Translations under genes and position numbers: made by a program
Shown: piece by piece, positions 15,647 to 29,938 of the stretch
Numbering within the stretch: the stretch's first letter is position 1
Layout of the letters: every line of letters starts with the position of its first letter
NCBI RefSeq assembly: GCF_000787835.1
Contig: NZ_BBPP01000007.1
Coordinates: forward strand, 149,292-213,291
Length of the DNA stretch: 64,000 nucleotides
DNA from: Streptacidiphilus melanogenes
GTDB lineage: Bacteria > Actinomycetota > Actinomycetes > Streptomycetales > Streptomycetaceae
Direction of reading: 5' to 3'
The notes under the pieces: model-generated
Told to the model about the DNA's origin: nothing
The model's database searches: none
Seen by the model: the letters and a program-made list of their open reading frames with translations, nothing else

Positions 15647-16201
15647 TGGCTAAGGATGGACCGGCCCGCCGCCTGGCGTTTGGGATTTTCGGTGTGTGTG
15701 CCGACGAGCCAGGTCGGTGTATTGCGGGCGAGCGGTTGCGGCGAGGCCCCCGAACTGCGCGGAAGGGGTGTCGTACTAGCGGAACCCGACCCGCAATGGG
15801 CGCCCCGCGTGCGGCACGGGGCAGACCAGGTCCTTCGGGAGCGCGCTCAGCGGCAGGCGGCTACCTCTGGCCCCGGCTCCTCAGGGCCGTGGCCATTGGC
15901 GGCTGGGTGAGGGTTGCCCCTTCCCGGCAATCGATCATGGAATGCCGTCGGTCTGCACGCTAGGTCGTCGGGCGCCTTTCTTCTTGCTTCGCGGCGAACA
16001 AAGCCGCCTTCCTCCCCAGCGTTCCGCCCGCCGGCCCTCCAAGCTCTCCTTTGCCGGGAGGGGGCCGGGGCGATCAGCCTCCAGGCCTGCCGGGGCGTGC
16101 GCCCGTGCGCGCAGTGCGGTCCGTAGGCGGGAAGAGCGCCGCAGGGGGCGCGTCCGCTTCGCGGACTCGGCGTATCGGCGCAGGTGGGACTGGGTTCTCC
16201 G

Positions 16202-16237
16202 TTGACACCCCTCCCCATATTCGATAGATTTACCTAT
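16202..16237 (+). promoter_or_regulatory. Consensus promoter P1 with ATAG-N6-CTAT operator
   Basis: TTGACA (16202-16207), a 17-bp spacer and TAGATT (16225-16230) form a near-consensus housekeeping sigma promoter. ATAG (16224) and CTAT (16234) make an inverted repeat straddling the -10, so a repressor there would block transcription. The same arrangement occurs at 18987 and 20900. Transcription would start around 16237, only a few bases before the RNA hairpin. Confidence 0.75.
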
Positions 16238-16244
16238 GTCGAAA

Positions 16245-16274
16245 GGGGGCAGGGCAAGCCCCCGAAACTCCACC
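16245..16274 (+). ncRNA. AGGGCAA-loop leader hairpin 1
   Basis: GGGGGC (16245-16250) pairs with GCCCCC (16258-16263) around the 7-nt loop AGGGCAA, followed by CTCCACC at 16268. It sits at the very 5' end of the predicted transcript, 36 nt before the ATG at 16300. It is one of six such elements in this region. Confidence 0.7.
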
Positions 16275-16299
16275 ACCACACTCTGAGGGGAACCTCTGC

Positions 16300-16929
16300 A
16301 TGAGCATCGTTGTGCCTCTATCCACCCTGGCGGCCGAGTTGCGGCCCTATCTCGACGCCAGCCTCGACGGCGCCGGCCGCCTGGTCATCGTGCTGCCCAG
16401 CAGTCGGGACCGCCTGGTCATCAAGCCGAGCGCGATCCGCACCCCGCACCCCCAACTGCTGTGGGAGGTGCGCACCTTCCTGGACACGGCGACCGGCGCG
16501 CGGGGATACCTGGACTGGCCGGACGAGCTCCCGCCCCTGGTCGCCTTCGTCCATCGGCGGGCCTTCTCCCTTGAGGAGGTCGGCCCGCAGTACCAGCTCG
16601 TCATTGACACGCTCGCTCTCCACGGCCTGAAGGCCGAGGTCATCGCCGCTGACGGCGGGGGCTACCAGATCCGGGTAGAGGTCCCCCGGCGCTGGTACCA
16701 GGCCATGGGGCTGCGGCCCGCTACCCACCTCCTGATCGGCGCGCCGGAGGTGCTGCCCGCACGGTCCCAGGAGGTTGATGGCTGGCACGTGGAGCACCAC
16801 GCGCCGGGCCACTTCATCGCCGTCGTCTACGACACGATCCCGGACGGCCGCGCGGAGACGACGTGGCGTAACGCCTCGCCGACGCTGCTGGCCGAGTACC
16901 TCGCGGAGTACATCAGCACAGCGCGCTGA
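16300..16929 (+). CDS. Hypothetical mobile-element protein behind leader hairpin 1
   Basis: A 209-residue soluble protein of unknown family, with a GAGGGG ribosome site 10 nt before the ATG. It reads as two alpha/beta halves: residues 1-100 include RLVIVLPSSRDRLVIKPSA, and residues 101-209 include IRVEVPRRWYQAMGL and FIAVVYDTIP. No signal peptide or membrane segment is seen. It is the first gene of the + strand block that runs to oriT, has its own strong promoter, and is followed by the C5-methyltransferase. Position suggests an early-expressed function such as anti-restriction or establishment, but the sequence itself does not show this. Confidence 0.75.
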   Translation: MSIVVPLSTLAAELRPYLDASLDGAGRLVIVLPSSRDRLVIKPSAIRTPHPQLLWEVRTFLDTATGARGYLDWPDELPPLVAFVHRRAFSLEEVGPQYQLVIDTLALHGLKAEVIAADGGGYQIRVEVPRRWYQAMGLRPATHLLIGAPEVLPARSQEVDGWHVEHHAPGHFIAVVYDTIPDGRAETTWRNASPTLLAEYLAEYISTAR

Positions 16930-16965
16930 GCGCGCCCTGGTTCCGCTGCCTTCGCGCAGTGCGAC

Positions 16966-17006
16966 GGCCGGACCCGGAGGGCAACCGGGTCCGGCCCTTC
17001 TCTACC
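16966..17006 (+). ncRNA. AGGGCAA-loop leader hairpin 2
   Basis: A perfect 12-bp stem (16966-16977 with 16985-16996) closes the loop AGGGCAA, followed by CTCTACC at 17000. The stem sequence is unrelated to those of the other copies. It lies 35 nt before the methyltransferase start. It could alternatively be read as a terminator for the upstream gene, but it lacks a T-tract. Confidence 0.65.
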
Positions 17007-17031
17007 GGCTCACCGACTCCGAGGATTCGCC

Positions 17032-18474
17032 TTGATCACCTTTACGGACCTCTTCTGTGGCGCAGGCGGCGCTTCCACCGGCCTGGTTCACGCCGGTTGG
17101 AAGCTCATTCTCGCTATGAACCACTGGTGGACCGCCATCGAGACCCACATGGCGAACCACCCGGACGCCGAGCACGCCTGCGAAAACGTGTCGACCTACG
17201 ACCTACGCCGCATCCCGAAGACCGACGTTCTGTGGGCAAGCCCGATCTGCACCGAGATCTCGCCCGCCGGTGGCCGAGCCCGCGCGAAGCGCAAGCGGAA
17301 GCTCACCGTCGAGCAGATGCGGCACCTCACCGAGGAGGAGATCCGCCAGCTCAAGGAAGAGTTGGAGTCGATCCCGGATGCAGCGTTCGAGCGCACCCGG
17401 GTCACCGCCTTCGACGTGATCCGCGCGATGGAACTCCACGACTACAAGGCAGTGCTGGTGGAGAACGTCGTCGAGTTCGCGCTCGACTGGAAGCTGTTCG
17501 ACCTGTGGCTCGCCATGGCGGCCCGGCTCGGCTACAACTACCAGATCGTCTCGGTCAGTTCGGCGCACGTTGGCGATGACACGAACCTGGCTGCACCGCA
17601 GTGGCGCGACCGCCTCTACATCGTCTTCACGAAGGAGGGCATCCGACTGCCGGACGTCGCCCCTCGCCCCCTGGCCCACTGCCACGAGTGCGACGAGGAC
17701 GTGTACTCCGTCCAGGCGTGGCGCCCCGAGCACACCGAGACCCGGATCGGCAAGTACGGCCAGCAGTACGACTACGCCTGCCCGAACCACGACAGGCCCG
17801 TGATCGTCGAGCCGTACACCCGACCGGCAGCCGCCATCATCGACTGGACCAACCTGGGCACCCGGATCGGCGACCGCAAGCGTCCGCTGGTGCCCAGCAC
17901 CATGGCCCGCATCCGCAAGGGCCTGGAACTGTACCCGGCTGACCCGTCGCTGATCACCCTCAACCACTCCGGGCACGACGGCCGCGCCTTCCGCGCCGAC
18001 CAGGCTCCGCTGCCGACGCGCGCCACGAAGATCGGCGAAGGGCTACTCGTCCCCACCAGCTACTACGACCGCGCCCTGTCGAGGGCAGACCTGGCTGCGC
18101 CGCCCTTTGTGATCACCTACCGCAACCACGGTGGCGCGGCGGGCGTGGACAGGCCGCTGACCGGCATCAACGCGAAGGGCAATCACCATGGGCTGGTCAT
18201 TCCCTACCGCAAGGGTTGCATCCCGAAGCCCGTCGAACAGCCCATTCACACGATGTCCACCCGCGACTCTGCAGGACTCCTGCTCACCGCCGCCGACGTC
18301 GATGACTGCTACTTCCGCATGATCCAGTGGCGCGAGCAGATGAGCGCCCAGCGCTTCCCCGCGGACTACATCGTCATGGGCGACACCCAGGAGGAGAAGA
18401 CGATGCAGGCGGGCAACGCCGTGTCGTGCAACGTCGCCCAGTGGCTCGGCAATGCCCTGAGTGCGGTCCTCTAA
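17032..18474 (+). CDS. Orphan C5-cytosine DNA methyltransferase, variant motif IV
   Basis: A 480-aa SAM-dependent cytosine-5 methyltransferase starting at TTG 17032. Motif I is DLFCGAGGAS (residues 5-14), motif VI VLVENVVEF, motif VIII QWRDRLYIVF and motif X AGNAVSCNVAQWL. The catalytic loop, usually PPCQ, is SPICTEIS here, with the nucleophile at Cys73 and the preceding Pro replaced by Ile. This variant also occurs in phage-like methylases. A charged insertion rich in Lys/Glu (about residues 83-110) follows. No cognate nuclease is adjacent, so it is an orphan. A mobile element could use it to protect itself from recipient restriction; the specificity is unknown. Confidence 0.88.
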   Translation: MITFTDLFCGAGGASTGLVHAGWKLILAMNHWWTAIETHMANHPDAEHACENVSTYDLRRIPKTDVLWASPICTEISPAGGRARAKRKRKLTVEQMRHLTEEEIRQLKEELESIPDAAFERTRVTAFDVIRAMELHDYKAVLVENVVEFALDWKLFDLWLAMAARLGYNYQIVSVSSAHVGDDTNLAAPQWRDRLYIVFTKEGIRLPDVAPRPLAHCHECDEDVYSVQAWRPEHTETRIGKYGQQYDYACPNHDRPVIVEPYTRPAAAIIDWTNLGTRIGDRKRPLVPSTMARIRKGLELYPADPSLITLNHSGHDGRAFRADQAPLPTRATKIGEGLLVPTSYYDRALSRADLAAPPFVITYRNHGGAAGVDRPLTGINAKGNHHGLVIPYRKGCIPKPVEQPIHTMSTRDSAGLLLTAADVDDCYFRMIQWREQMSAQRFPADYIVMGDTQEEKTMQAGNAVSCNVAQWLGNALSAVL

Positions 18475-18485
18475 CGCCTCGCGCC

Positions 18486-18518
18486 GGGTCGGGTCCGTCA
18501 CCCTGACGGGCCCGGCCC
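18486..18518 (+). terminator. Hairpin terminator after the C5-methyltransferase
   Basis: A 15-bp stem (two G-T wobbles) closes a CCC loop 11 bp after the stop codon. There is no T-tract, as is common for Streptomyces terminators. Confidence 0.6.
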
Positions 18519-18562
18519 AGCCTGAGGCCCAGCACGTCCGACAATCACCGAAGGAAGGCGCC

Positions 18563-18877
18563 ATGCCCACCTACAACCCCTACCCTGCCCTGACTCAGGC
18601 CCTGCGCGTCGTCGGCGCTCAGCCCGTCGTCGACTGGGGGCTGAGCGACTACATCGTCACCGTCGCCCTGCCCGACGGCCGCGAGATCGTCATCTCGCCC
18701 CCGCAGGAGCCGAGCGAACCGCACCCGCCGCGCGCCTGGACCGCCGACCTGCACGACCGTCAGGCCGACAGCGCCGAAGTCATCTACGACTCCACCGATT
18801 CCGGCCCCGATGCGGAGCATGCGGGCAGCCTCGACCCGCTGTTGAGCGCGGTCCGCAGCCACCTTCCGTCCAACTAG
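18563..18877 (+). CDS. Small hypothetical acidic protein
   Basis: A 104-residue protein starting at ATG 18563 with GAAGGAAGG before it. The first 50 residues look folded (TQALRVVGAQPVVDWGL then YIVTVALPDGREIVI, a beta hairpin). The remainder is Asp/Glu/Pro rich and probably extended. No family was recognised. It lacks the AGGGCAA leader of its neighbours and lies after the methyltransferase terminator. Confidence 0.65.
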   Translation: MPTYNPYPALTQALRVVGAQPVVDWGLSDYIVTVALPDGREIVISPPQEPSEPHPPRAWTADLHDRQADSAEVIYDSTDSGPDAEHAGSLDPLLSAVRSHLPSN

Positions 18878-18986
18878 CCGATCCCGGCGACCACCCCGTC
18901 GGCGTCAGGAACCGTCCAACTCTGGCGCGATGCCGCCGAGGCGACTGCTCGGGCTGTCGAGGAGCCGCCGACACCGCCGAACAGCG

Positions 18987-19022
18987 TTGACGCCCTTCCC
19001 TATGATCGATAGATTTACCTAT
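18987..19022 (+). promoter_or_regulatory. Promoter P2 of the shared type
   Basis: TTGACG (18987-18992), a 17-bp spacer and TAGATT (19010-19015), with the same ATAG-N6-CTAT repeat over the -10 as at 16224 and 20922. The -10 core GATAGATTTACCTATGTC is identical in all three, although the flanks here are otherwise unrelated. Confidence 0.75.
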
Positions 19023-19057
19023 GTCATTGGGGGGTGTGGTGAACCCTCCGGACCCCA

Positions 19058-19099
19058 CCTGGTGCGCGGCAGGGCAAGCCCCGCACCAGGGCCTCCACT
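19058..19099 (+). ncRNA. AGGGCAA-loop leader hairpin 3
   Basis: Twelve base pairs with one C-C mismatch (19058-19070 with 19078-19090) close the loop AGGGCAA (19071-19077), followed by CTCCACT at 19093. It lies 65 nt before the ATG at 19156, the longest distance of the six. Confidence 0.7.
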
Positions 19100-19155
19100 G
19101 CCACGCGGGCGGACTGCGGGCTGCGCTCCAAGCCGCCCCGACCGAAGGGGACTTC

Positions 19156-19368
19156 ATGGCCCACTATGTACAGACGCCGCACGGCGATCCCGGATTCGAC
19201 CGCTGGGTGGCGCAGGCGATCGCCCTCACCAGGCGGCTGCGCCTCGTCGCGCCGAGCGACCGGCCGCATCCCGCGCCCCTCGCGAGCGATGCCGACGCCG
19301 ACATCGAGGCGCTCGCCACCATGCTGGGCCTGCTGGCCCCGGCGCCCACGGGAAGCGGTGGGCAGTAA
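19156..19368 (+). CDS. Small hypothetical protein behind leader hairpin 3
   Basis: A 70-residue protein. The ATG at 19156 is preceded by GAAGGGG and was preferred to an upstream ATG at 19021, which would place the hairpin inside the coding region. It has one helical core (FDRWVAQAIALTRRLRLV) and a second helix near the C-terminus (ADIEALATMLGLL). There is no signal peptide and no recognised family. The small helical form could suit a protein-binding inhibitor or regulator, but nothing specific supports that. Confidence 0.6.
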   Translation: MAHYVQTPHGDPGFDRWVAQAIALTRRLRLVAPSDRPHPAPLASDADADIEALATMLGLLAPAPTGSGGQ

Positions 19369-19458
19369 CGGCCTGCACTTGCAGGATGGCCATCCGGCTC
19401 CATTGTGGCGACGGGACCGCGAACCGCCGCCGGTGCGGCTCGCCGCCTGGGGAGAAGT

Positions 19459-19491
19459 GGGGGCGGCGCGGCAATCAGCCGCGCCGCCCCC
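19459..19491 (+). terminator. Perfect 14-bp hairpin terminator
   Basis: GGGGGCGGCGCGGC and its complement flank AATCA in the 306-bp gap between the genes at 19156 and 19675. A small CCTGCA-CT-TGCAGG palindrome lies just after the upstream stop codon. The rest of the gap (19492-19674) shows no gene. Confidence 0.65.
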
Positions 19492-19674
19492 GAAGACTGG
19501 GTGGGGCCGACGATACGAACACAGGGTTCGTGCCAGCGCCGCCGAAGGCCCGCTGACTCGGGCAAACCGCCGACCCCGTTCTCCATCACCTACCGAACAA
19601 CTGGGCCGAAGCCCCGCTCTTCTGCAAGGGGTGCCCACAGTGTACGGCCCACAATGCGACAGGATGGACCCACC

Positions 19675-20544
19675 ATGACGACGACCAAAGCGCAGTTCGA
19701 GCAGCGACTCGGGGCACTCACTGGAGACTGGGTCTCCCGCACGGACCTCAGGCACCTGGCGGGCATCTCCGAGAAGACCCTCAAGCTCTGGCTCGGCAGC
19801 GAGCCGTTCACCGAGGACCAGATCCAGATCGGCCCGCGCGGCGTCCTGCTCTACGCCCGCGACCCGGCCGCTACCTGGATCAAGGGGAAGCTGTTCGAGC
19901 AAGGCAAGGACGGGAGTGCTCCGTCGGGTCCGCGACTGTCGGCCGAGCCGACGCGCATGCCGCACGCTCCCGGCGACCGGTGGCGCTGGACCGACATCGC
20001 CCGACTCCGCGGTGTCACGCCAGGAGCGGTGAGCAACCTCGCGAAAGCGTACGAGGCGCACGCCGAGCACCCGTTCCCGCCGGCGGAGGCCGACCGCAAG
20101 CGGTCAGCCGAAGCCGTTGCCGCCTGGTTCCTCTGGTACGACGAGGAGCGACCCGGATACGCGGAGCGAGGCAAGCAGGCCACCCCCAGCGCTCCCGCGG
20201 GAAGAGTGGGCGAAGTCGTCGCGATCCTGGAGCATGCCGTCGCGGCACGGCAGTCCCTTTCCGCCGAAGCGCTCGCCCGCAGCTTGGACGTGACGCCCGC
20301 CGTCGCCGCTCGCTACCTGGCCCAGGCCGAGGACGTCGTCATGTCGAAGGCGGGCCTGATCGCGCGCAGTGCCATCGCCGCCATGCTGCCCGACGCGGCC
20401 CAGCTCACCCCCCGCCAGCGAACCGACAGGGTCAAGACCCTCCTGCGACGCAAGGGCGCCCCCAGGAGCGTCCTCAGCGTCGGGAGCGCCGACTACTTCG
20501 ACCGCACCGAGGTGACGCGGCTCTTGACCGCGGCCGCGAGGTGA
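19675..20544 (+). CDS. Multi-HTH DNA-binding protein
   Basis: A 289-residue protein with three helix-turn-helix-like segments: VSRTDLRHLAGISEKTLKLW (about residues 20-40), TDIARLRGVTPGAVSNLAKA (about 104-123) and SAEALARSLDVTPAVAARYL (about 200-220). A basic C-terminus (TLLRRKGAPRSVL) follows. It is probably a transcriptional regulator or a replication/partition DNA-binding protein of the element. It lies between two copies of the shared operator-bearing promoter (19010 and 20923), which makes it the best local candidate for the protein that binds them; that link is inference. The start at ATG 19675 has only a weak ribosome site. Confidence 0.65.
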   Translation: MTTTKAQFEQRLGALTGDWVSRTDLRHLAGISEKTLKLWLGSEPFTEDQIQIGPRGVLLYARDPAATWIKGKLFEQGKDGSAPSGPRLSAEPTRMPHAPGDRWRWTDIARLRGVTPGAVSNLAKAYEAHAEHPFPPAEADRKRSAEAVAAWFLWYDEERPGYAERGKQATPSAPAGRVGEVVAILEHAVAARQSLSAEALARSLDVTPAVAARYLAQAEDVVMSKAGLIARSAIAAMLPDAAQLTPRQRTDRVKTLLRRKGAPRSVLSVGSADYFDRTEVTRLLTAAAR

Positions 20545-20899
20545 CGGCTGGGCGGCGAAAGATCCACGGCCTGCGGTGGGCGGGTGGTGTGGTCCTGTTG
20601 TGGGGTGGGTGGCCCTTCCCGGCAATCGATCATGGAATGCCGTCGGGGTCTGCACGCTAGGTCGTCGGGCGCCTTTCTTCTTGCTTCGCGGCGAACAAAG
20701 CCGCCTTCCTCCCCAGCGTTCCGCCCGCCGGCCCTCCAAGCTCTCCTTTGCCGGGAGGGGGCCGGGGGCGATCAGCCTCCGGGCCTGCCATAGCGTGCGC
20801 CCGTGCGCGCAGTGCGGACCGTAGGCGGGAGGACGACAGCAGGGGGCACGTCCGCTTCGCAGGCTCGGCGTATCGGTGCAGGTGGGACTGGGTTCTCCG

Positions 20900-20935
20900 T
20901 TGACACCCCTCCCCAGATTCGATAGATTTACCTAT
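20900..20935 (+). promoter_or_regulatory. Promoter P3 of the shared type
   Basis: TTGACA (20900-20905), a 17-bp spacer and TAGATT (20923-20928), with the ATAG-N6-CTAT inverted repeat over the -10. It is nearly identical to P1 because it lies inside the duplicated cassette. Confidence 0.75.
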
Positions 20936-20942
20936 GTCGAAA

Positions 20943-20972
20943 GGGGGTAGGGCAAGCCCCCGAAACTCCACC
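20943..20972 (+). ncRNA. AGGGCAA-loop leader hairpin 4
   Basis: GGGGGT (20943-20948) pairs with GCCCCC (20956-20961), the closing pair being a T-G wobble, around the loop AGGGCAA, followed by CTCCACC at 20966. The single C-to-T change relative to hairpin 1 keeps pairing possible. It lies 33 nt before the GTG start. Confidence 0.7.
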
Positions 20973-20994
20973 ATCAACACCCCAGGAGGGGACT

Positions 20995-21249
20995 GTGGCC
21001 GAGGCACTCAACTTCATCGTCTGGAACGAGGTCGCCGACATGCTCGGCGAGTTCGACAACGCCGCCGACGCGGACGCCTGCGTCGAGCGCGAGCAGGCCG
21101 CCTGCGCGGAGATCTGCGGGACCGACGGTCGGGACACCAACGGGAACGGCGCATTCGCCTGCGGCGTCATGTCGCCCCACGGCATCCACGTGCAGGTCGA
21201 GGACGCCAACGGCGTCGACCGCACGAGCGACCCCGCGATCCGGCTCTGA
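20995..21249 (+). CDS. Small hypothetical protein behind leader hairpin 4
   Basis: An 84-residue acidic protein starting at GTG 20995 with a strong AGGAGGGG ribosome site. The N-terminal helix (LNFIVWNEVADMLGEFDNAADADA) precedes a segment with three cysteines in VEREQAACAEICG and FACGVM, possibly metal-binding. No family was recognised. It shares promoter and leader type with the gene at 16300, so the two are probably expressed together. Confidence 0.65.
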   Translation: MAEALNFIVWNEVADMLGEFDNAADADACVEREQAACAEICGTDGRDTNGNGAFACGVMSPHGIHVQVEDANGVDRTSDPAIRL

Positions 21250-21313
21250 CCAGCACGCCAACCCGACTCGCGCCGCAGCTGACTGCAGCGCGCACAACGG
21301 CACGGAGACCACG

Positions 21314-21700
21314 ATGGCATTCGGCACCCCTGTGAACATGGACGACCAGACCCAGCTCCGCCCCGTCTTCGACCCCCGGCTGTACTGCTACAGCATCCAG
21401 CTCTGGGTCGACGGGCAGCCGGGCGGCATCCACGGCCTGGTGGAGCAGTTCCCCCACCCGGACGACGTGATGGACACCCTCAACGCCTTCCTGGAGGAGA
21501 ACCAGATCCGCCACATCACGAGCGAGGAGTACAGCGCGCTCTGCCGCTCGCTGATCGAGGCCAAGGACGGCCCCGAGTGGGCGTTGATCCAGGCGATTGA
21601 GCAGGACCCGGAGGTGGCTGCCCTGTTCGGCTTCCTGGAGGAGGACGAGGACGGGTGCGAGAGGGAGTACGACGAGGACGAAGGGGAGATCGCGGAGTAG
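21314..21700 (+). CDS. Small highly acidic protein
   Basis: A 128-residue protein with GGAGA before the ATG. The body (YSIQLWVDGQPGGIHGLVEQ, DVMDTLNAFLEENQIRHI) looks folded and helical. The last 20 residues are almost all Glu/Asp, and the whole protein is strongly negative. Small acidic proteins of mobile elements sometimes mimic DNA and inhibit restriction enzymes or nucleoid proteins, but no known family (Ocr, ArdA, DMP) is recognisable. It has no AGGGCAA leader and is probably co-transcribed with the gene at 20995. Confidence 0.65.
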   Translation: MAFGTPVNMDDQTQLRPVFDPRLYCYSIQLWVDGQPGGIHGLVEQFPHPDDVMDTLNAFLEENQIRHITSEEYSALCRSLIEAKDGPEWALIQAIEQDPEVAALFGFLEEDEDGCEREYDEDEGEIAE

Positions 21701-21750
21701 CCCACCGGCGCAACCTGGTGGGCCGAGGCAGGCCCTCGGCCCACCACCCA

Positions 21751-21811
21751 GGCCACGCGAGACGGACGGACGGGCAGTGCCCCGATCGCAGGTTCGACCC
21801 CTGCCGTGGCC
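21751..21811 (+). ncRNA. tRNA-like element A, reduced
   Basis: GGCCACG (21751-21757) pairs perfectly with CGTGGCC (21805-21811) like an acceptor stem. GCAGG-TTCGACC-CCTGC (21788-21804) is a canonical T-arm directly joined to it. Between them only 30 nt remain, with a GGGC-AGT-GCCC mini-hairpin, so there is no D-arm and no 7-nt anticodon loop. At 61 nt it cannot be an ordinary tRNA. It ends 12 nt before leader hairpin 5. Confidence 0.55.
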
Positions 21812-21822
21812 GCGCACAGGCA

Positions 21823-21859
21823 GCACGCGGGACAGGGCAAGTCCCCGTGCGACTCCATC
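21823..21859 (+). ncRNA. AGGGCAA-loop leader hairpin 5
   Basis: Ten base pairs with one bulged C (21823-21833 with 21841-21850) close the loop AGGGCAA, followed by CTCCATC at 21853. It lies 26 nt before the ATG at 21877. Confidence 0.7.
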
Positions 21860-21876
21860 ACCCAACGGGAGTTCGT

Positions 21877-22383
21877 ATGAGCGGCACCAACGTGCACCGA
21901 CTCACCGTCCAGCGCCGTCAGAGTGAAATCGACCGCGACGTCCGGCGCCTCTACCGGCTGGCCTACGCGGCAACCCACCTCTCAACCAGGGTCCACCACC
22001 AGATCATGACCGCCGATCGGGTCCGGGCCATCGCCGTTCGCATCAGGGCGGCTAACACCGTTGCCGTGCGTATCACCGGCCGGCCCGGCGTTGCCGATCA
22101 CGCCGAAACCGAATACGCGCTCCAACTGCTCAGCGACGCCGCCGAGAGCGTTCCCGAGGTGACCGTCGAGCTGCTGTCCATCGCCCACAGGGCGCGCTCA
22201 GCGGCGCGGCAGCCCGGCCTGAAGATCCCAACCCGCTTGAACCTGGGCGACATCGCCTACGAGGCCCGAGCCATGGCCCTCGACCTGCCCTTCATTGGCC
22301 TGCCCCTGCGCAGCCCGCGCGGCCGAGCCGCACTCGCCCGAATCAGGATGCGAGCCGCCGAGTACGGGCTGACCGAGGGATAG
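21877..22383 (+). CDS. Hypothetical helical basic protein behind leader hairpin 5
   Basis: A 168-residue, Arg/Ala-rich, wholly helical protein. The ATG at 21877 has a modest GGGAG ribosome site; it was chosen because the open frame extends upstream through the tRNA-like element and hairpin. Segments such as RQSEIDRDVRRLYRLAYAAT and DRVRAIAVRIRAANTVAVRI suggest long amphipathic helices, and the C-terminus is basic (SPRGRAALARIRMRA). No family was recognised. The basic helical character would suit nucleic-acid or membrane-surface binding. Confidence 0.65.
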   Translation: MSGTNVHRLTVQRRQSEIDRDVRRLYRLAYAATHLSTRVHHQIMTADRVRAIAVRIRAANTVAVRITGRPGVADHAETEYALQLLSDAAESVPEVTVELLSIAHRARSAARQPGLKIPTRLNLGDIAYEARAMALDLPFIGLPLRSPRGRAALARIRMRAAEYGLTEG

Positions 22384-22429
22384 TCCGGGCCGCAGACAAC
22401 GGCTGCGCCCACAAGTCGGCGCAGCGCCA

Positions 22430-22495
22430 GACCACGCAACACGGAAGAGCTGCAGTCAACCATCGCAGCGCGCAGGTTCGAATCCTGCCGTGGTC
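22430..22495 (+). ncRNA. tRNA-like element B, D-arm-less
   Basis: GACCACG (22430-22436) pairs with CGTGGTC (22489-22495), and GCAGG-TTCGAAT-CCTGC (22472-22488) is a perfect T-arm containing the tRNA box GGTTCGAATCC. A GCTGC/GCAGC stem with an 11-nt loop occupies the anticodon-arm position, and the D-arm is missing. Total length is 66 nt with no encoded CCA. Acceptor and T stems match element A in layout, with compensating changes in the acceptor stem. It ends 23 nt before leader hairpin 6. Confidence 0.6.
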
Positions 22496-22518
22496 ACGCA
22501 GTACCCGCAACATCCGCA

Positions 22519-22552
22519 CGGCGAGGACAGGGCAAGTCTTCGCCGCTCCACC
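22519..22552 (+). ncRNA. AGGGCAA-loop leader hairpin 6
   Basis: Ten base pairs including one G-T wobble (22519-22528 with 22536-22545) close the loop AGGGCAA, followed at once by CTCCACC (22546-22552). It lies 30 nt before the ATG at 22575. Confidence 0.7.
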
Positions 22553-22574: not shown

Positions 22575-23777
22575 ATGGAAGCAGAGCAGAACCCCGCACC
22601 GACACCGGGCGCAGCCCTGGCGAAGGCCCTGACCCACTTCTTCACCGAGTGGCCGACAGGCGGCGACGACGCCAAGGCCAGGACGACCATCACCATCACC
22701 GACCCGGGCCACCCCGCGCACACCCTGTACCTCCGCGTCGAGGAGACCAACGCCCTCACGACGCTGGTGATGAACGAGGACGCCTCCTACCGCAACAGCC
22801 ACCCGGACATCGACGGCCCGTGCGGGCACTGCGGCAGCACCCGCGAGCCCGCTGGAAACGGCCCCGCCGGCGAGCCTCGGCGCCGGGCAGCCCCAGACGG
22901 ACCGGACTGCGCCGGGCGGCTCCAGGAGCCGGACACGACGGACAGCAGCGACTACGCGCTCGCCACCGTCCGCCACCTCGTCCCGTGCGCGGACCAGCGC
23001 ATCATCAAGGCAGCCCGCGATGCTGTCAGCCACGTCCCGCAGCTCCATGACGGCGCAGCGCTGATCGGTCTGGAGACTGGGGCCATCAGCGCGGCATACC
23101 TGGGCGGCGACTGCGCCGGGATCCCGCTCTACTGGGACGCTCGGGCCACGACGCTGGTCTACGCGGACGGCTCGCGGTTCCCGGCCGACCTGGGCGACTC
23201 GGACTACGACCGGCTCCTCACCGCTCTGAGCGAGTCGGTCCCCGCTCAGAGCGGATCGCACTTCCTGCGCGTCACGCTCGTCCGGGAGCCAGTGGGGGAG
23301 CCGATGCTCGTCACGGTCGAGGCCACCATGCACGGCCCCTACCTCGGCTTGCCAGCCACGCTGCCCCAGGACCGATCCTCCACCTACCTGTTCACCCGCC
23401 AGACCGTCTACCAGATCATCGACGACCTGGACGCGGACACCCGCGAGGTGACCGCCGCCTGGGAGGGGGACGCCGTCCGGTTCACCTGGACCACCGCCCA
23501 CGACGGCGACGGTGGAACCCTCCTGGTCTTCCCCGACGCCCACCAGCGTTACCCGATCGGCCACGGCATGTGGTGCTGGGAGCCCTGGGGCAGCCAGCTC
23601 TTCGCGTCCGAGCGGCAGTACGCATTCGTCCTCGGCTGCACCACCTACGACAGCGACATCCCGAGCCCGTCCGAACCGATGGACGGCAACGACTACCTCC
23701 GGCGCAACTTCGAGTACTACTACCTCCGAGGGCGCGCGGAGGCCCGCCGCCTGACGCTCCACCGCAGCGACTCCTAG
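22575..23777 (+). CDS. Hypothetical 400-aa protein with a Cys-pair knuckle
   Basis: A soluble, acidic protein of unknown family, with CCGGAGAG before the ATG. The N-terminal domain (residues 1-90, TITITDPGHPAHTLYLRVEE) is followed by CGHCG, a possible zinc knuckle. A Pro/Gly linker then leads to a large C-terminal domain rich in aromatic residues (YLFTRQTVYQIIDDL, GMWCWEPWGSQLF, NFEYYYLRGRAEARR). No signal peptide or catalytic motif was found. It is the largest gene carrying the AGGGCAA leader and stands alone between its tRNA-like element and a terminator. Confidence 0.7.
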   Translation: MEAEQNPAPTPGAALAKALTHFFTEWPTGGDDAKARTTITITDPGHPAHTLYLRVEETNALTTLVMNEDASYRNSHPDIDGPCGHCGSTREPAGNGPAGEPRRRAAPDGPDCAGRLQEPDTTDSSDYALATVRHLVPCADQRIIKAARDAVSHVPQLHDGAALIGLETGAISAAYLGGDCAGIPLYWDARATTLVYADGSRFPADLGDSDYDRLLTALSESVPAQSGSHFLRVTLVREPVGEPMLVTVEATMHGPYLGLPATLPQDRSSTYLFTRQTVYQIIDDLDADTREVTAAWEGDAVRFTWTTAHDGDGGTLLVFPDAHQRYPIGHGMWCWEPWGSQLFASERQYAFVLGCTTYDSDIPSPSEPMDGNDYLRRNFEYYYLRGRAEARRLTLHRSDS

Positions 23778-24368: not shown

Positions 24369-24782
24369 CTAAGGCGTCACGGAGCCGGCCTGAGAGGTAG
24401 GTGACGGCGCCGATGCAGCCGCCGCGTCGCCGGGCGTGCCGCTGGCCTTCCGTGTCGCCTTGATCTCCCGCACCTTCGCGACAGGGATACCCAGGCGGTC
24501 GGCGACGTCGGAGGCGTTGGCCAGCTCCAACATCTCCGCCGCAGCGTCCGTCAACCTCTGCTCAAGCTGCCCGACTTGCTGCACCAGCTCGCCCCTGATC
24601 CTCGCCGTGTACTGGTCGATCCGAGCCTGCGCTGCTTCGCGGAGACCCCCGATCTGATCGTCCACCTCGAACCACGTCGTCGCCAGGTCTTCCAGGCGCT
24701 GCTCCCGCTCGCGCGCCCCCGCTGTGCGTGCCCTTGCCTTCTCGCGTGCCGCGACCGCGCGCGAGCCCCTGCGTTCCGCCAT
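24369..24782 (-). CDS. Relaxosome-type accessory DNA-binding protein (probable)
   Basis: A 137-residue protein transcribed away from the candidate oriT and divergent from the relaxase. The ATG at 24782 begins MAERRGSRAVAAREKARART, a very basic N-terminus. A long coiled-coil-like helix follows (QRLEDLATTWFEVDDQIGGL ... VQQVGQLEQRLTDAA). Next is a helix-turn-helix-like ASDVADRLGIPVAKVREIKA (about residues 92-111) and a flexible Ala/Ser/Pro tail. Size, charge, coiled coil and position beside the oriT repeats fit a MobC/TraK-type accessory factor or a local repressor. No named family was confirmed. Confidence 0.65.
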   Translation of the reverse strand: MAERRGSRAVAAREKARARTAGAREREQRLEDLATTWFEVDDQIGGLREAAQARIDQYTARIRGELVQQVGQLEQRLTDAAAEMLELANASDVADRLGIPVAKVREIKATRKASGTPGDAAAASAPSPTSQAGSVTP

Positions 24783-25022: not shown

Positions 25023-25118
25023 GATCGTGAAGGCAGTTGAGGTGCGTCGGCTCGGCGGCTCGGCTCGTTCCTCGCCTTCTCCACCCTCCCCTTCCACACC
25101 TCAACTGCCTTCACGATC
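25023..25118. repeat. Perfect 22-bp inverted repeat with 52-bp spacer, candidate oriT
   Basis: The arm at 25023-25044 is exactly complementary to that at 25097-25118. The spacer between them is a strand-biased stretch (many C and T on the + strand towards its end). It ends 8 bp before the relaxase -35 element. Together with the 24963-25008 repeat this makes a compact double-hairpin oriT candidate. The nick site cannot be fixed by eye. Confidence 0.6.
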
Positions 25119-25125
25119 GAAGCTC

Positions 25126-25160
25126 TTGCATTCACAATGTCACAAGGTATGCTGAGCATA
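25126..25160 (+). promoter_or_regulatory. Leaderless relaxase promoter with palindrome
   Basis: TTGCAT (25126-25131), a 16-bp spacer and TATGCT (25148-25153) place transcription start at about the ATG of 25160. The -10 is half of TATGCT-G-AGCATA (25148-25160), a palindrome reaching the start codon, so a bound repressor or the relaxase could shut off its own gene. Confidence 0.55.
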
Positions 25161-28100
25161 TGATGACCATTCACAAGCTGTCCGCTGGTGATGGTTACCT
25201 GTACTACTCGCGCGAGATCGCGACCGGCGACGAACGCCGCACGGGCGAGAAGAAGATCAGCGACTACTACCACGCCGACGGCAACCCACCCGGCATCTGG
25301 GTAGGCTCGGGAATCACCGAACTCGGCGTGTCCGGCACCGTTTCCGAGAGCCAGATGGCCGCCCTCTACGGTGAGGGACTGCACCCCGATGCCGACCGCA
25401 TCATCGAGCGGGCCGTCGCGGATGGACTGACGTCAGCGCAGGCCATGCGGCTGGCGCGACTTGGCCGGCGCTACTACCGCTACGACCAGACTGAAGGCCC
25501 CCTGGCGGCCCAAATCCAGGACGCCTTGGAGGCGTTCGAGGCCAGGAAGGGTGAGATCGCGACCGAGGAGGAGCGCAAGCAGCAGCGCGGCAAGGTCGGC
25601 GCCATCGCGTTCCGGGCAGACTTCGGCCGCTCGCCGAAGGACGCTGAGGAGCTGAGCCGCTACATCAGCGCGAACACGGCTTGCAGCCGCCAGGCGGTGG
25701 CCGGCTTCGATCTGGTCTTCCGCAACAAGTACGCCTCCGTCCTCTGGGCACTGTGCGACGAGGACACCCGGCTTGAAGTCGAGGCGGCCCACGAGCAGGC
25801 CATCGCGGAGACGCTCTCGTGGATCGAGGAACACGCCCTCGCCACCCGCACCGGTATCAACGGCGTCGCCCAGGAGGACGTCCGCGGGGGCATCATCGCG
25901 GCGCGCTACCGGCACTACGACAGCCGCCGCGGCGACCCGCTCCTGCACGACCACGTGGTCGTGGCCAACAAGGTTTTGGGCGTCGATGGCAAGTGGCGCA
26001 CCATCGACGGCAAGCTCCTCTACGCGATGGAGGTAGCCGCCAGCGAGTTCTACAACCAGCGCGTCGTCGAGGAGATGTGCCGTCGCCTCGGTGTGCAGGC
26101 GGAAGAGCGGGAAGTGACGCCAGGCAAGCGGCCGGTGGTCGCGATCTCGGGCCTGGATGACGACCTGATCGAGACGTTCAGCAAGCGCGCCCAGGACATC
26201 CGGAAAGACCTGGCGGTCCTCTTGGCGGGCTACCGTCGTCGGTACGGCAAGGAGCCCGACACCGCCGCACGAATGGCCCTGATCCAGCAGGCCGCGCAGC
26301 AGACGCGACCCAAGAAGAAGGCGGCCCGGTCGCTGTTCGAATTGCGTGCCGCATGGCGCGCGGAGGCTATCGCTCTGTTCGGCGATTCCCGCATCAACGC
26401 GCTGCTTCAGCGCTGCCGACAGGCCGTCAGCCTTGCGGACGGCGGTCGCGATCCGGTGGCGTCCCTCGACCTGGACCAGCTCGCGGAAGGCGTGCTGGGG
26501 GTTGTCTCCGAAGAGCGGGCGGTCTGGGCTGAGCGGCACGTCCTGGCGGAGGCACGGCGGCACGTCGTCCGGGCCACCAAGGGGCGCGGTGACACCCGCG
26601 GACTGGCCGAGCGCATCACGCAACTGGTGCTCAGCAACGGATCCTTGGACATCACCCCGCCGGACATCAACCCGGCCTTCGCGCCCCTGCAGCGCGCCGA
26701 CGGCGCCAGCATCTACCGCCGCAAGGAGTCGCGGCTGTTCACCTCCGCAGCGATCCTGGCCGCCGAGGCACGGATCCTGGACGCCGCGCTGTCCGCCGCC
26801 ATCCCCGCCGTCTCGGCGGAGGCTTTTGCAACGGCATCGAGGGCGTTCGCCGGGCCGCAGCTGGATGCCGGGCAACGGCGTCTTGTCGAGAGCTTCGCCT
26901 GCTCGGAGCGGCTGGTGCAGGTCGGCATCGGCCCCGCCGGCTCGGGCAAAACCACCGCGCTGCAGCTCGTGCGCGACGCGGTCCAGGCATCGGGTGGACG
27001 GGTGATTCCGCTCGCTCCCTCCAGCCGCGCCGCCGCCGTGCTCAAGGCCGACCTCGACGTCGACGCCCACACCCTGCACAGCTGGATCGTGCAGCGGCAG
27101 CGCCTCGCTGAAGGCAGCCGCGTCCAATACGACTGCCAGCTGCGGCCCGGCGACGTCCTCGTCATTGACGAGGCCGGGATGGCAGGCACCCGCCGACTCG
27201 CGCGCATTGTGGATGACGCCATCGCCGCCGGCGCGATGGTCCGCCTCATCGGTGACCCCGCACAGCTCGGCGCGGTCGAGTCCGGCGGCGTCCTGCGGCT
27301 GATCGCCCGCGAGGTCGGCGCCGTAGAACTGGAGCAGCTGCACCGGTTCCGCGCCGAGGGCGAGAGCGCAGCTACCCTGGCGCTGCGCGACGGCGACGCG
27401 GCCGACGCGTGGACTTGGCACCTGGCGAACGGGCGGATCGTCGGCGGCAGCAGCGAGGACATGCTCGACGGCCTGTTCCAGGCTTGGCAGGCCGACACGG
27501 AGCAGGGCCTGCTCTCCCTGATGATGGCCGACGACGACGACAGCGTCCGCGAGCTGAACCTGCGCGCCCAGAGCTTCCAGGTCGCCTCCGGCCGACTCGA
27601 CCTGTCCCGCTCGATCCCCCTGCGGGACGATGCGCAGGCCGCCGTCGGAGACCTGATCGTCACCCGCCGCAACCAGCGCCGACTGCTGACGCTGGGCGGA
27701 AAGGACTGGGTCAAGAACGGCGACCAGTGGCAGATCGAGGCCCTGGACGACAAGGGCAACGCGACGGTCCAGCACACGGGACACCGCGGACGCGTGATCC
27801 TGCCCGCCCGCTACCTGCGTCGGCACGGCCAGCTCGGCTACGCCTGCACCGTTCACCGCGCCCAAGGGCTGACGGTCGACACTTCCCACGGCCTGGTGAC
27901 CGCCCGGACCAGCCGCGAGTCCGCGTACGTGATGGCCACCCGCGGACGACTGTCCAACCGCCTGGCGGTCGTCACCGACGAAGGCCGGAGCATGCGGGAC
28001 GTGCTCGACTCCGTCGCCCGCAGCAACAGCGCGTCGGTCTCCGCCCACGAGGCCATCCAGGCAGAGCAGGAGCGGACCTACAGCATCGGCCAGCTGGCCG

Positions 28101-29938
28101 CCGAGTACACCGACGTCTACGCCCGCGCGCAGTCACACCGCCTCCGCGCCCTTGCCCGCCGGGTCCTTGGCACAGCAGCTGAGGAGTTCATCGCCCTCGA
28201 CGCCTGGTCGGCCGTCGAGCGCGCCCTTGCCCGGGGCGAGAACAGCGGTTGGGACGCAGGTCGCCTGCTGCAAACCGCCCACGCACAGCGGGACTTCCGC
28301 AGCGCCGAGGACCTGTCCGCCGTGCTCTCCTGGCGGATCGACGCGGTCGTCGAGGAGGGCCGACGGGCCGCCGAGCGCGCTGCTGAGCGCGAAGCCGAGG
28401 CCGGCGGCAGCCGCCCACTGCGAGACCTGACCAACGAGCAGCTGGGTCGGCTGTTCGAGCGCGCACAGCAGCGTCGCGCCGACGCGCTGGAGGAACTGCA
28501 ACGCGCGGAAGCGGCCGTGGCAGGTCAGCCCCGTCCGGTCGTGGTCGACGGCCTCCCGCACCCGGCCTGGCCGCACCGCACCTACGGCCACTTCACCCGC
28601 ACCCAGCTGGCCGATGCCATCGCCGACGCTCGCCAACGGAGGCGGCGGGCCGAGCGTGAGGGTGACCAGCAGGGCGAGCGCTCCGCCGCCGCAGAGCACT
28701 CGCTCCTGCGCCGGGAGCAGCGGCTTCGGCGGACGATGCGGCCGCTGGACCGGATGCGCGAGGACTGGCAGCGCGAGCCCCGCACCGGTTCCAGTCGAAC
28801 GGCACACCAGCCGCTGGAGACCACCGTCGCCGAACTGACGGAGAACCTCTACCGGCACGAGGCGGCGGCGGACCGCCTGCGCCTGGCCCAGGTGATCGCG
28901 GACCGCGTGGACGCGGAACGCCGTCTTCGGACGCGGTTGCCCGACGGGCCTGCTCCCACGCCGGACCACTCCGGGGTGCTGCCGGACTGGCTGGCGCCGT
29001 CGGCAGCCCTTCGCGACCAGGACACCCCGGCCGGGTGGCGTCAACACCTCGTGGAGCGGCGGATCATCCTGGCTGAGCGGCTGCAGCACCAAGGCCTGTC
29101 GCTGTCGGCAGAGCCGCCGGCGTGGAGCCGCCCCCTGGGACCGGTCCCGAGTGCTGACGGCGAGCTGCGCGCCCTGTGGGAGCGCACGGCCGCGCTGGTC
29201 GAGGTGTGGCGTCAGCGCTACGGCCTGGACGACAACGCCATGGGATTGGGCCCGCAACCAGAGGAGCCACGAGACGCGCACGCCTGGGCCGTGTTCCAAG
29301 AGCGGGTGGAACTGGTCGGTCGCCGCACGCGGGCGTGGGCAGCAGCGGTCGCCCGCCCCGATGACCCCTCCCAGGGGATGCGCATCGCCGCCCGCACGGC
29401 CGAGAACGTGTTGCTGCGGTTGCTGGAGACGCGGGTCGCCGACGAGCAGGACCGGGGCGCGGTCTCGGCCGCGGCCGCCGCGTTCGCGGACGTGGCCCTG
29501 TTCCGTGCGATGGCCTCCGAGGAACCGGCGGAGGAGTGGGTGCAGCAGATCCCGACGCCGGACCCTGAAGACCCGGGCCAGCAGCAGCAATGGCGAGACC
29601 TGGTAACGGCCTTGGCGACCTACCGGATGGTGCATCAGACTGATTCTGCTGACCCGCTGGGCGAATCCCCGGACGACGAGGAGCAGCGCCTGGTGTGGTC
29701 GGATCTCCAGGCCGCGATGACGCTCTTCCAGCGCGCCCGGATCCAGCAGCGACTGGCCGAGATCACGGCCCTGCGCGACGCCGAGCGCGCCCACCGCGGC
29801 CTGGCTGCGCATTCGGCTACCCGCCCGGACCCTGAGGCCGCCCCCGGGCGGCGAGCCCGCCAACGCGCCGAGGACGAGCAGCAGCGTCAGCAGCGCCCCG
29901 GACCGGCTTCTGGCCCCCGTCGGGGGCCAGGTATCTGA
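25160..29938 (+). CDS. MOBF (TrwC/TraA-type) conjugative relaxase-helicase
   Basis: A 1,592-aa enzyme that nicks and unwinds DNA at oriT for conjugative transfer. The N-terminal relaxase domain has candidate catalytic tyrosines in GYLYYSRE (Tyr13, 15 and 16) and the three-His metal site with His252 in YRHYDSRRGDP and LLHDHVVV (His263, His265). The SF1B helicase follows: Walker A GPAGSGKTT (about 592), Walker B VLVIDEAGMAG (about 667) and YACTVHRAQGLTVD (about 895-908). The C-terminal ~600 residues are helical, Arg/Glu rich and probably a protein-interaction region. The ATG at 25160 was chosen because it follows the promoter and matches the family N-terminus. The next small gene follows 21 bp later. 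Confidence 0.92.
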   Translation: MMTIHKLSAGDGYLYYSREIATGDERRTGEKKISDYYHADGNPPGIWVGSGITELGVSGTVSESQMAALYGEGLHPDADRIIERAVADGLTSAQAMRLARLGRRYYRYDQTEGPLAAQIQDALEAFEARKGEIATEEERKQQRGKVGAIAFRADFGRSPKDAEELSRYISANTACSRQAVAGFDLVFRNKYASVLWALCDEDTRLEVEAAHEQAIAETLSWIEEHALATRTGINGVAQEDVRGGIIAARYRHYDSRRGDPLLHDHVVVANKVLGVDGKWRTIDGKLLYAMEVAASEFYNQRVVEEMCRRLGVQAEEREVTPGKRPVVAISGLDDDLIETFSKRAQDIRKDLAVLLAGYRRRYGKEPDTAARMALIQQAAQQTRPKKKAARSLFELRAAWRAEAIALFGDSRINALLQRCRQAVSLADGGRDPVASLDLDQLAEGVLGVVSEERAVWAERHVLAEARRHVVRATKGRGDTRGLAERITQLVLSNGSLDITPPDINPAFAPLQRADGASIYRRKESRLFTSAAILAAEARILDAALSAAIPAVSAEAFATASRAFAGPQLDAGQRRLVESFACSERLVQVGIGPAGSGKTTALQLVRDAVQASGGRVIPLAPSSRAAAVLKADLDVDAHTLHSWIVQRQRLAEGSRVQYDCQLRPGDVLVIDEAGMAGTRRLARIVDDAIAAGAMVRLIGDPAQLGAVESGGVLRLIAREVGAVELEQLHRFRAEGESAATLALRDGDAADAWTWHLANGRIVGGSSEDMLDGLFQAWQADTEQGLLSLMMADDDDSVRELNLRAQSFQVASGRLDLSRSIPLRDDAQAAVGDLIVTRRNQRRLLTLGGKDWVKNGDQWQIEALDDKGNATVQHTGHRGRVILPARYLRRHGQLGYACTVHRAQGLTVDTSHGLVTARTSRESAYVMATRGRLSNRLAVVTDEGRSMRDVLDSVARSNSASVSAHEAIQAEQERTYSIGQLAAEYTDVYARAQSHRLRALARRVLGTAAEEFIALDAWSAVERALARGENSGWDAGRLLQTAHAQRDFRSAEDLSAVLSWRIDAVVEEGRRAAERAAEREAEAGGSRPLRDLTNEQLGRLFERAQQRRADALEELQRAEAAVAGQPRPVVVDGLPHPAWPHRTYGHFTRTQLADAIADARQRRRRAEREGDQQGERSAAAEHSLLRREQRLRRTMRPLDRMREDWQREPRTGSSRTAHQPLETTVAELTENLYRHEAAADRLRLAQVIADRVDAERRLRTRLPDGPAPTPDHSGVLPDWLAPSAALRDQDTPAGWRQHLVERRIILAERLQHQGLSLSAEPPAWSRPLGPVPSADGELRALWERTAALVEVWRQRYGLDDNAMGLGPQPEEPRDAHAWAVFQERVELVGRRTRAWAAAVARPDDPSQGMRIAARTAENVLLRLLETRVADEQDRGAVSAAAAAFADVALFRAMASEEPAEEWVQQIPTPDPEDPGQQQQWRDLVTALATYRMVHQTDSADPLGESPDDEEQRLVWSDLQAAMTLFQRARIQQRLAEITALRDAERAHRGLAAHSATRPDPEAAPGRRARQRAEDEQQRQQRPGPASGPRRGPGI

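Follow-up and report, generated by a model that had tools for sequence, protein, structure and literature searches.

Introduction

The solutions described so far for the expression of conjugative-element genes in a newly entered host are, in the parts of the two sources consulted, single-stranded DNA (ssDNA) promoters (PMC11541004) and, in plasmids of the pLS20 family, repressed duplex promoters together with the unexplained EGeRS1 blocks (PMC8708921). Within the same parts, EGeRS1 is a sequence of 400-600 bp, conserved as a whole and present once per operon, which contains inverted repeats and in which no strong sigma-A promoter was found, while EGeRS2, of the p576 type, holds a strong promoter repressed in the donor (PMC8708921). 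For the conjugative elements of actinobacteria, the expression of anti-defence and establishment genes on host entry is poorly known. Here we analyse 64,000 nt of the Streptacidiphilus melanogenes genome (hereafter the window; positions 149292-213291 of the 266-kb contig NZ_BBPP01000007.1, genome size 8.77 Mb), where six hairpins with the invariant loop AGGGCAA precede six genes upstream of a MOBF relaxase gene. Our reading, to which we give a probability of about 0.53, is that in Streptomycetaceae these hairpins act in cis as an mRNA leader module, carried by the leading-region (establishment) genes of MOBF conjugative elements, and that an element-specific trans factor controls translation through them.

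Two further systems offer points of comparison. The nut sites of phages (boxA-boxB) combine a hairpin of fixed loop and variable stem with a linear segment and are read by an element-specific protein, and in the CsrA/Rsm system many mRNAs are marked by one loop motif with a GGA core for one RNA-binding protein.

Results

Hairpins with a constant loop and covarying stems

The six hairpins reported in the initial annotation were all recovered on the + strand, in gene sense and each upstream of its own gene, and the loop AGGGCAA is exact in 6/6 (loop starts 16251, 16978, 19071, 20949, 21834 and 22529). Hairpin 1 (16245..16263, GGGGGC[AGGGCAA]GCCCCC) has a stem of 6 pairs, the intercistronic hairpin 2 (16966..16996) one of 12, hairpin 3 (19059..19089) 12 pairs with one C-C mismatch, hairpin 4 (20943..20961, GGGGGT[AGGGCAA]GCCCCC) 6 pairs, hairpin 5 (21823..21850) 10 pairs with one bulge and hairpin 6 (22519..22545) 10 pairs including one G-T. 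Each is followed by a CTCYAY segment, in order CTCCAC (16268-16273), CTCTAC (17000-17005), CTCCAC (19093-19098), CTCCAC (20966-20971), CTCCAT (21853-21858) and CTCCAC (22546-22551), which begins 4, 3, 3, 4, 2 and 0 nt 3' of the hairpin, and the gaps from hairpin to start codon are 36, 35, 66, 33, 26 and 29 nt. The hairpins thus stand as close to their genes as had been noted, with the ranges corrected from 26-65 to 26-66 nt for the start codons and from 0-6 to 0-4 nt for CTCYAY. Hairpins 16245 and 20943 are near-copies, both lying within a duplicated block of ~330 nt, so that the window holds five independent stems, in agreement with the earlier count of at least five unrelated ones; the downstream genes are likewise mutually unrelated as claimed, the six proteins giving no cross-match at an E value of 0.1. 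The duplicated block comprises promoter and leader (15950-16278 and 20647-20976) and is partly 100% identical.

The window contains 19 copies of AGGGCAA where 4.7 are expected, a fourfold excess attained in 0/100 shuffles. Uninterrupted stems of at least 6 pairs flank 4/19 of these sites, compared with 499 of ~127,900 positions for all 7-nt loops (~9e-7, binomial, calculated post hoc), and AGGGCAA is the commonest 7-nt loop on such stems in the window. The other 13 copies in the window form no hairpin.

Covariation was assessed in two alignments, gapless around the loop, whose members were picked by loop and leader position, stemless sites (16274 in locus L040 and copies in coding sequence) being excluded and each copy being assigned to a 7- or an 8-nt-loop set by how it pairs. 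Because members were selected by loop, stem and pairing, the percentage paired is biased upward; the diversity of the stems is independent of this selection. The 7-nt-loop set (16 copies, 15 distinct) has 85.8% of cells paired against 51.2% when shuffled, with a covariation score of 0.744 against 0.178 shuffled and at most 0.264 slid, and the 8-nt-loop set (19 copies, 18 distinct) has 86.1% against 56.9%, with a score of 0.600 against 0.160 shuffled and at most 0.168 slid. Double changes are found in all 8 pairs of both alignments. The initial annotation had taken a constant loop on a covarying stem as the mark of a selected structure and had called for covariation to be checked across homologues; in both alignments the covariation lies far above the shuffled and slid controls.

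Taking all loop classes together, 67 distinct stems, trimmed to their best-scoring length, contain 656 Watson-Crick, 14 GT, 8 AC and 20 other base oppositions. A hairpin was called at 131/167 loop-word sites examined. The remaining 36 are, by eye, mostly coding-sequence-like, and at least five non-hairpin sites were seen in leader-like places (16274 in L040, 10692 in L041, 8480 and 14253 in L042, and 8207 in L008).

Leaders in other conjugative elements

Leaders of this kind recur upstream of MOBF relaxase genes, on the same strand, in conjugative elements of Streptomycetaceae. AGGGCAA stands on changing stems upstream of the relaxase in three genomes (G039, G055 and G042), and AGGGCAA leaders are also found in G001, G150, G065, G144, G005 and G184, as well as in G093, with a relaxase of only 29% identity. 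The Kitasatospora plasmid NZ_CP108486 has 11 leaders by eye, 10 of them with at least 4 uninterrupted pairs, and over its whole 79 kb AGGGCAA occurs 17 times on the + strand and once on the other. Searched with a covariance model of 16 copies, 38/200 Streptomycetaceae genomes had matches at E up to 0.05. Six elements outside the training set (G001, G150, G065, G144, G005 and G093) have a match on the strand of the relaxase, at 7-11 kb on its upstream side; the G093 match itself lacks the usual segment, and four neighbours in that stretch carry the segment or a near form. The copies expected elsewhere were therefore found in many relatives within the family. Many of the weak model matches are chance: when 21 three-kb loci with weak in-family matches were viewed by eye, that of G112 was the one leader. 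A search at class level matched 7/296 genomes at E up to 0.005, four of them outside the family, and by eye these four do not resemble leaders, two being hairpins of one genus without the segment and two looking unrelated. The one-genus pair (loci L167 and L168 of genomes G380 and G289, another family; 1501-1532) is an isolated perfect AGGGCAA hairpin with neither the constant segment nor an evident gene start 3' of it. Upstream of three Microbacteriaceae relaxases (L054-L056) no loop heptamer stands out.

A count of heptamers before gene starts that takes no account of hairpins recovers both loop and segment in the window, in L040, L041, L042 and L009, and in the RTGGCA set introduced below. 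The view that the loop motif is undescribed still holds as far as the sources covered go: Rfam 15 gives 0 matches at the gathering cut-off in the window, L005, L009 and L041, two sub-threshold snoRNA matches in 15.8-23.0 kb overlap no hairpin, and no earlier description was found in the open-access papers searched, subscription papers lying outside the scope of the search.

Loop and segment change together between elements. AGGGCAA is paired with a CCCAC-type segment (CTCCAC in the window), the loop RTGGCA with CTCGAAACCC in S. xanthii, NBC_01732, pZL1 and NBC_01601, and the loop CGGGAAT with CCTCAAC in G176; heptamers of the RTGGCA class occur in NBC_00586 and NBC_01241 as well. Main-strand sites that combine an NTGGYN loop with a stem of 4 or more pairs and a segment of no more than 2 mismatches number 39 on the S. 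xanthii plasmid and 33 on pZL1, against means of 0.8 and 0.4 in five base shuffles each. CTCGAAACCC, allowing up to 1 mismatch, lies 3' of 66/70 RTGGCA hairpins and of 1/19 non-hairpin RTGGCA sites. Even near-identical leaders differ jointly in both parts, with AGGGCAA and CCCACGA in L104 (8246) against GTGGCA and CTCGAAACCC in the promoter copies of L005. In a relaxase tree of 32 rows the RTGGCA elements group in a single clade with support, and AGGGCAA is found on either side of the longest inner branch, which suggests that AGGGCAA is perhaps ancestral and was followed by two switches. At L005 4776 (NZ_CP061283.1) the annotated gene start is the ATG within a hairpin loop ATGGCA, so this start is probably misannotated. 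An antisense RNA to the segment was considered for S. xanthii only and rejected, since several segment sites first taken as leaderless belong to leaders of variant loop and the others look unrelated.

Position of the leader relative to the start codon

Copies stand both after promoters and between cistrons. In the densest stretch, that of S. xanthii, 17/22 annotated + genes are leadered, in addition to the one whose annotated start is the ATG of the loop, and 11/23 genes are leadered in the Kitasatospora stretch. With start codons picked by script, and with copies within one element not being independent, the distance from segment to start has a median of 25 and a standard deviation (sd) of 2.4 in the Kitasatospora plasmid (11/11), where the stem-to-segment distance has an sd of 12.6. 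The corresponding values are 30, sd 3.3 (65/66) and 4.4 for the RTGGCA elements, and 30.5, sd 3.9 (20/21) and 2.8 for the G001 type.

The initial annotation had suggested that the CTCC segment pairs with a GGAG-type ribosome site. This is in general unsupported, the predicted pairing being at or below that of shuffled sequence in 5/6 sets, and sequestration of the ribosome site by the segment was accordingly rejected. For the five window leaders with a segment the pairing is 0.23 against 0.32 shuffled, only 21834 (0.68) and 22529 (0.34) showing any, and the values are 0.10/0.11 for the other members of the window group, 0.02/0.02 for Kitasatospora, 0.09/0.14 for the G001 type and 0.09/0.13 for RTGGCA. 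It is slightly above control in G176 alone (0.17/0.15, 4 leaders).

Promoters, genes and other features of the locus

A scan of 15.9-23.0 kb for promoter-like sites found three, against a shuffle mean of 0.3, and these sit upstream of hairpins 1, 3 and 4. The first is a sigma-70-like promoter, TTGACA-17-TAGATT (16202..16240, +), with a conserved ATAGATTTACCTATGTC block over -10/+1 that is repeated in relatives; the second promoter/operator block reads TTGACG-17-TAGATT (18987..19025, +), and the third (20900..20938, +) is a duplicate of the first. The ATAGATTTACCTATGTC-type block, a putative operator, occurs at three places in the window and also in G039, G055 and G042, and a TTGAC...TAGATTTACCTATGTC-type block is common to the promoter-linked leaders of the window group, an ATAG...CTAT inverted repeat spanning the -10 in most of them. 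The promoter 16-mer matches 21 viral contigs (G+C fraction 0.32-0.47), none with an adjacent leader, and one stem-loop 21-mer has no match among the viral contigs; a phage origin was rejected.

Within the array, a gene for a 289-aa protein (19675..20544, +) has no AGGGCAA hairpin before it and is a candidate regulator of the TAGATTTACCTAT block. The protein has no Pfam, PHROG or NCBIfam match, a pattern scan of the genome contigs gave no relatives, and among 200 genomes it occurs in six, namely four of the window group, G177 and, weakly, G030. As an RNA factor it was rejected: 35 kb around the G177 copy contain an operator-like block and neither an AGGGCAA hairpin nor a relaxase match. It is likely to be a regulator acting at the DNA level.

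The genes behind hairpins 1 to 6, all on the + strand, encode a 209-aa protein (16300..16929) with relatives in G039, G055 and G042, a C-5 cytosine DNA methyltransferase (17032..18474; PF00145, 1e-25), and proteins of 70 aa (19156..19368), 84 aa (20995..21249), 168 aa (21877..22383) and 400 aa (22575..23777). The function of the five besides the methyltransferase is unassigned: they have no match in Pfam (E 0.01) or NCBIfam (E 0.1), and only marginal PHROGs matches (E 0.065-0.067). Leaders precede 6/10 putative genes at 16.3-24.3 kb. The MOBF relaxase-helicase (TrwC and AAA_30, 1633 aa; 25037..29938, +) is encoded 1.3 kb past the last leadered gene on the same strand and is present in all 12 elements compared. 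Its nearest named relatives, at 50-55% identity, belong mostly to Streptomyces and Kitasatospora plasmids, some with type IV secretion system genes; the genes upstream of their relaxases mostly run towards the relaxase, and an ArdC-like gene lies there in 4/5 of the first-fetched relatives. ArdC-like genes and a gene run directed towards the relaxase are usual leading-region content, and the stretch upstream of the relaxase would thus be the leading region.

Two tRNA-like minihelices lie directly 5' of hairpins 5 and 6 (21751..21811 and 22430..22495, both +). Both have a perfect 7-bp acceptor and a 5-bp T arm with a TTCGACC or TTCGAAT loop and are without normal D and anticodon arms, and neither is called as a tRNA by ARAGORN. 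The exact T-arm and acceptor string of the second is found in two viral contigs, in one of which (L130) it lies inside a called tRNA-Arg.

Four other features were seen. A McrBC-type restriction pair (an AAA_5/Mrr_N protein and a McrBC-component protein) lies at 6571-9725 of the window. An open frame of 6089 codons (30875-49144, -) has helicase and UvrD-like matches, with similar stretches in G039, G055, G042 and G176, and is perhaps a giant conjugation-associated protein. A candidate origin of transfer in L009 is a long inverted repeat (gtgacccttaacgatctt...) just before 20013, on the upstream side of the relaxase gene. Finally, L044 (G113:C45) carries two CRISPR-like arrays of ~29-nt repeats with a 61-nt period and mostly unique spacers (reversed stretch, ~8.8-9.3 and 15.9-16.4 kb), and the MOBF relaxase downstream of them shows none of the leader hairpins.

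Discussion

The module as we read it would have three parts, namely a hairpin whose loop is invariant and element-specific and whose stem can change, a short A/C-rich constant segment near the ribosome site, and the ribosome site itself. Standing both at the 5' ends of transcripts and between cistrons, it would act per cistron, and most simply on translation initiation, to which the closeness of the segment to the ribosome site, cistron by cistron, also points. A trans factor differing between element families may read loop and segment together and set the translation of the regulon as activator or repressor, probably confining expression to entry into a new host, while the DNA-level promoter/operator would act beside the RNA leader.

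Several observations weigh against this reading. Leading genes without the module number 4/22 in S. xanthii, 12/23 in Kitasatospora and 4/10 putative genes in the window, and 14/32 relaxase loci in the tree have no leader in the stretch examined, some of these stretches being short. Only the Kitasatospora plasmid shows clearly that the segment is placed by its distance to the start codon rather than to the stem; in the G001 type the segment keeps a tighter spacing to the stem, and in the window group (29, sd 14.4, 17/22) and G176 (22, sd 17.0, 7/7) its distance to the start varies widely. The count of doubly changed pairs, taken alone, is matched by 42/500 shuffles in the 7-nt-loop set and by 9/500 in the 8-nt-loop set, and pairing alone does not decide between RNA and DNA, the GT excess being small. 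A common trans factor was not found when the 87 annotated Kitasatospora proteins and the open frames of the window and G001 stretches were compared with the other elements: among the 12 elements, several sampled in part, only the relaxase is universal. The translational control by a loop-binding protein that had been proposed for the window is plausible as a mode of action; no such protein emerged. Predicted access to the ribosome site is independent of the hairpin; taken with the lack of segment pairing above control, this makes a bound factor likelier than an intramolecular switch.

The hairpin might instead be the 5' end of the mature mRNA, generated by transcription start or by cleavage between cistrons, which it would shield; an RNase would be attracted or kept off by loop and segment, and the two tRNA-like minihelices, next to hairpins 5 and 6, would serve as cleavage signals. 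Promoter-linked copies do begin shortly after the -10 block, in the S. xanthii plasmid uninterrupted stems are longer in intercistronic copies than in promoter-linked ones, and the tRNA-like structures lie directly 5' of two hairpins. We nevertheless consider such a processing or stability module unlikely, as simple shielding needs no invariant, element-specific loop with a matching segment, and the tRNA-like pair is confined to the window among 18 stretches scanned, with one dissimilar match in L108.

According to the parts of the source consulted, Frpo promoters occur widely in leading regions (PMC11541004), and a hairpin on the transferred DNA could be an ssDNA promoter or a priming site of the Frpo or ssi kind. 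The position in a leading-region-like stretch beside a MOBF relaxase, the placement of the upstream genes mostly on one strand and the ArdC-like and methyltransferase genes of the named relatives would suit such an element. The stems, however, have 4-16 counted pairs in 131 hairpins, too short for the ~29 bp of a -35, spacer and -10, and the three promoter-like sites found in 15.9-23.0 kb of the window lie not inside the stems but upstream of the hairpins. Nearly all copies lie on one strand, yet the orientation of the module appears to follow its gene. On the other strand of the S. xanthii plasmid two promoter-plus-leader copies precede other-strand genes, that at 24599 a Pycsar-effector-like gene at 24649 and that at 57317 the gene at 57385, and a third variant with loop CGGCA stands before 65045; these opposite-strand copies, though two or three against 39 on the main strand, would favour RNA over transferred ssDNA. 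The other strand of pZL1 has four chance-like matches, and that of the Kitasatospora plasmid no leader. The excess of GT over AC, 14 to 8 in a symmetric count, leans towards RNA and is non-significant. A first count of 98 to 13 was discarded as a strand test because the pairing score favoured G-T, as was a fold-based count in the opposite direction (12 on the sense strand to 48 on the other), which included pairs outside the stem. Action at the level of ssDNA thus appears distinctly improbable.

A hairpin with a linear segment, placed near promoters and between the cistrons of long one-strand gene runs, also resembles a nut- or put-like site of processive antitermination or anti-polarity, with a factor or RNA polymerase itself as its reader. 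A single copy on each transcript would then do, yet 18/22 genes are leadered in the densest stretch; the segment lies near the start codon; and no terminator-like site was found in 15.9-23.0 kb, so that we hold this explanation to be very doubtful. The hairpins as intrinsic terminators were ruled out by the absent U tract, 1/132 being followed by 4 or more T within 12 nt. A neutral or selfish repeat, in which palindromic units spread by duplication without regulatory role, is hardly credible: some copies are recent duplicates and the stems of the RTGGCA plasmids are largely uniform, but distinct paired stems on a constant loop, placement in gene sense and a second segment are not expected of it.

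The leader module we favour may have a further dimension, which we put forward tentatively and regard as rather less than probable. Each element family would mark its entry genes with an RNA password of its own, made of loop and segment, and a cognate factor would admit only those messages to translation. Relaxases of MOBF type can travel with the transferred DNA and the relaxase is the sole protein common to the 12 elements compared, so the reader could come in together with the transferred strand, ahead of all expression of element genes. If the leader reading is true, a per-cistron RNA mark with an element-specific loop adds a further, post-transcriptional layer to entry-gene expression. 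The leader motif would also be a sequence handle for entry genes of unassigned function in Streptomyces plasmids and integrated elements, and orthogonal RNA-factor pairs for the control of expression in Streptomyces could perhaps be obtained.

Of the described systems, the establishment regulons of pLS20 and p576 and the Frpo promoters come closest to the module in purpose. A per-cistron hairpin with an element-specific loop does not appear in the consulted parts of either source on establishment-gene expression (PMC8708921; PMC11541004). The EGeRS1 and EGeRS2 sequences of pLS20-family plasmids are, like the module, repeated before establishment genes, and the TTGAC-17-TAGATT promoter with its ATAGATTTACCTATGTC block resembles the donor-repressed promoter EGeRS2 as far as the consulted parts describe it (PMC8708921); the same promoter is indeed repeated here before several genes of the presumed leading region, as EGeRS2 is before several establishment operons, a likeness that concerns the promoter layer only and not the hairpin. 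The EGeRS2 repressor is a ribbon-helix-helix protein, and the 289-aa candidate regulator has no Pfam match. From EGeRS1, as described there, the module differs in its hairpins, which measure 19-32 nt in the window, stand ahead of many single cistrons and have a free stem, an invariant loop and a second segment, in its occurrence in Streptomycetaceae, and in the sigma-70-like promoter at 3/6 copies. The Frpo and ssi hairpins, too, are leading-region structures beside conjugation genes and tied to early expression after transfer, but Frpo is, in the consulted parts, a DNA structure containing the promoter (PMC11541004), whereas the stems here are too short for this and a duplex promoter lies upstream of three window hairpins. 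We rate the module as a cis-regulatory leader RNA in many copies whose element-specific code is unusual. It differs from nut in that many single cistrons carry a copy and in the place of the segment, which follows the hairpin on its 3' side and is close to the start codon. With CsrA/Rsm it shares the marking of many mRNAs by a common loop motif; AGGGCAA and RTGGCA, however, do not contain GGA (the CGGGAAT of G176 does), and the loops here vary from one element to another.

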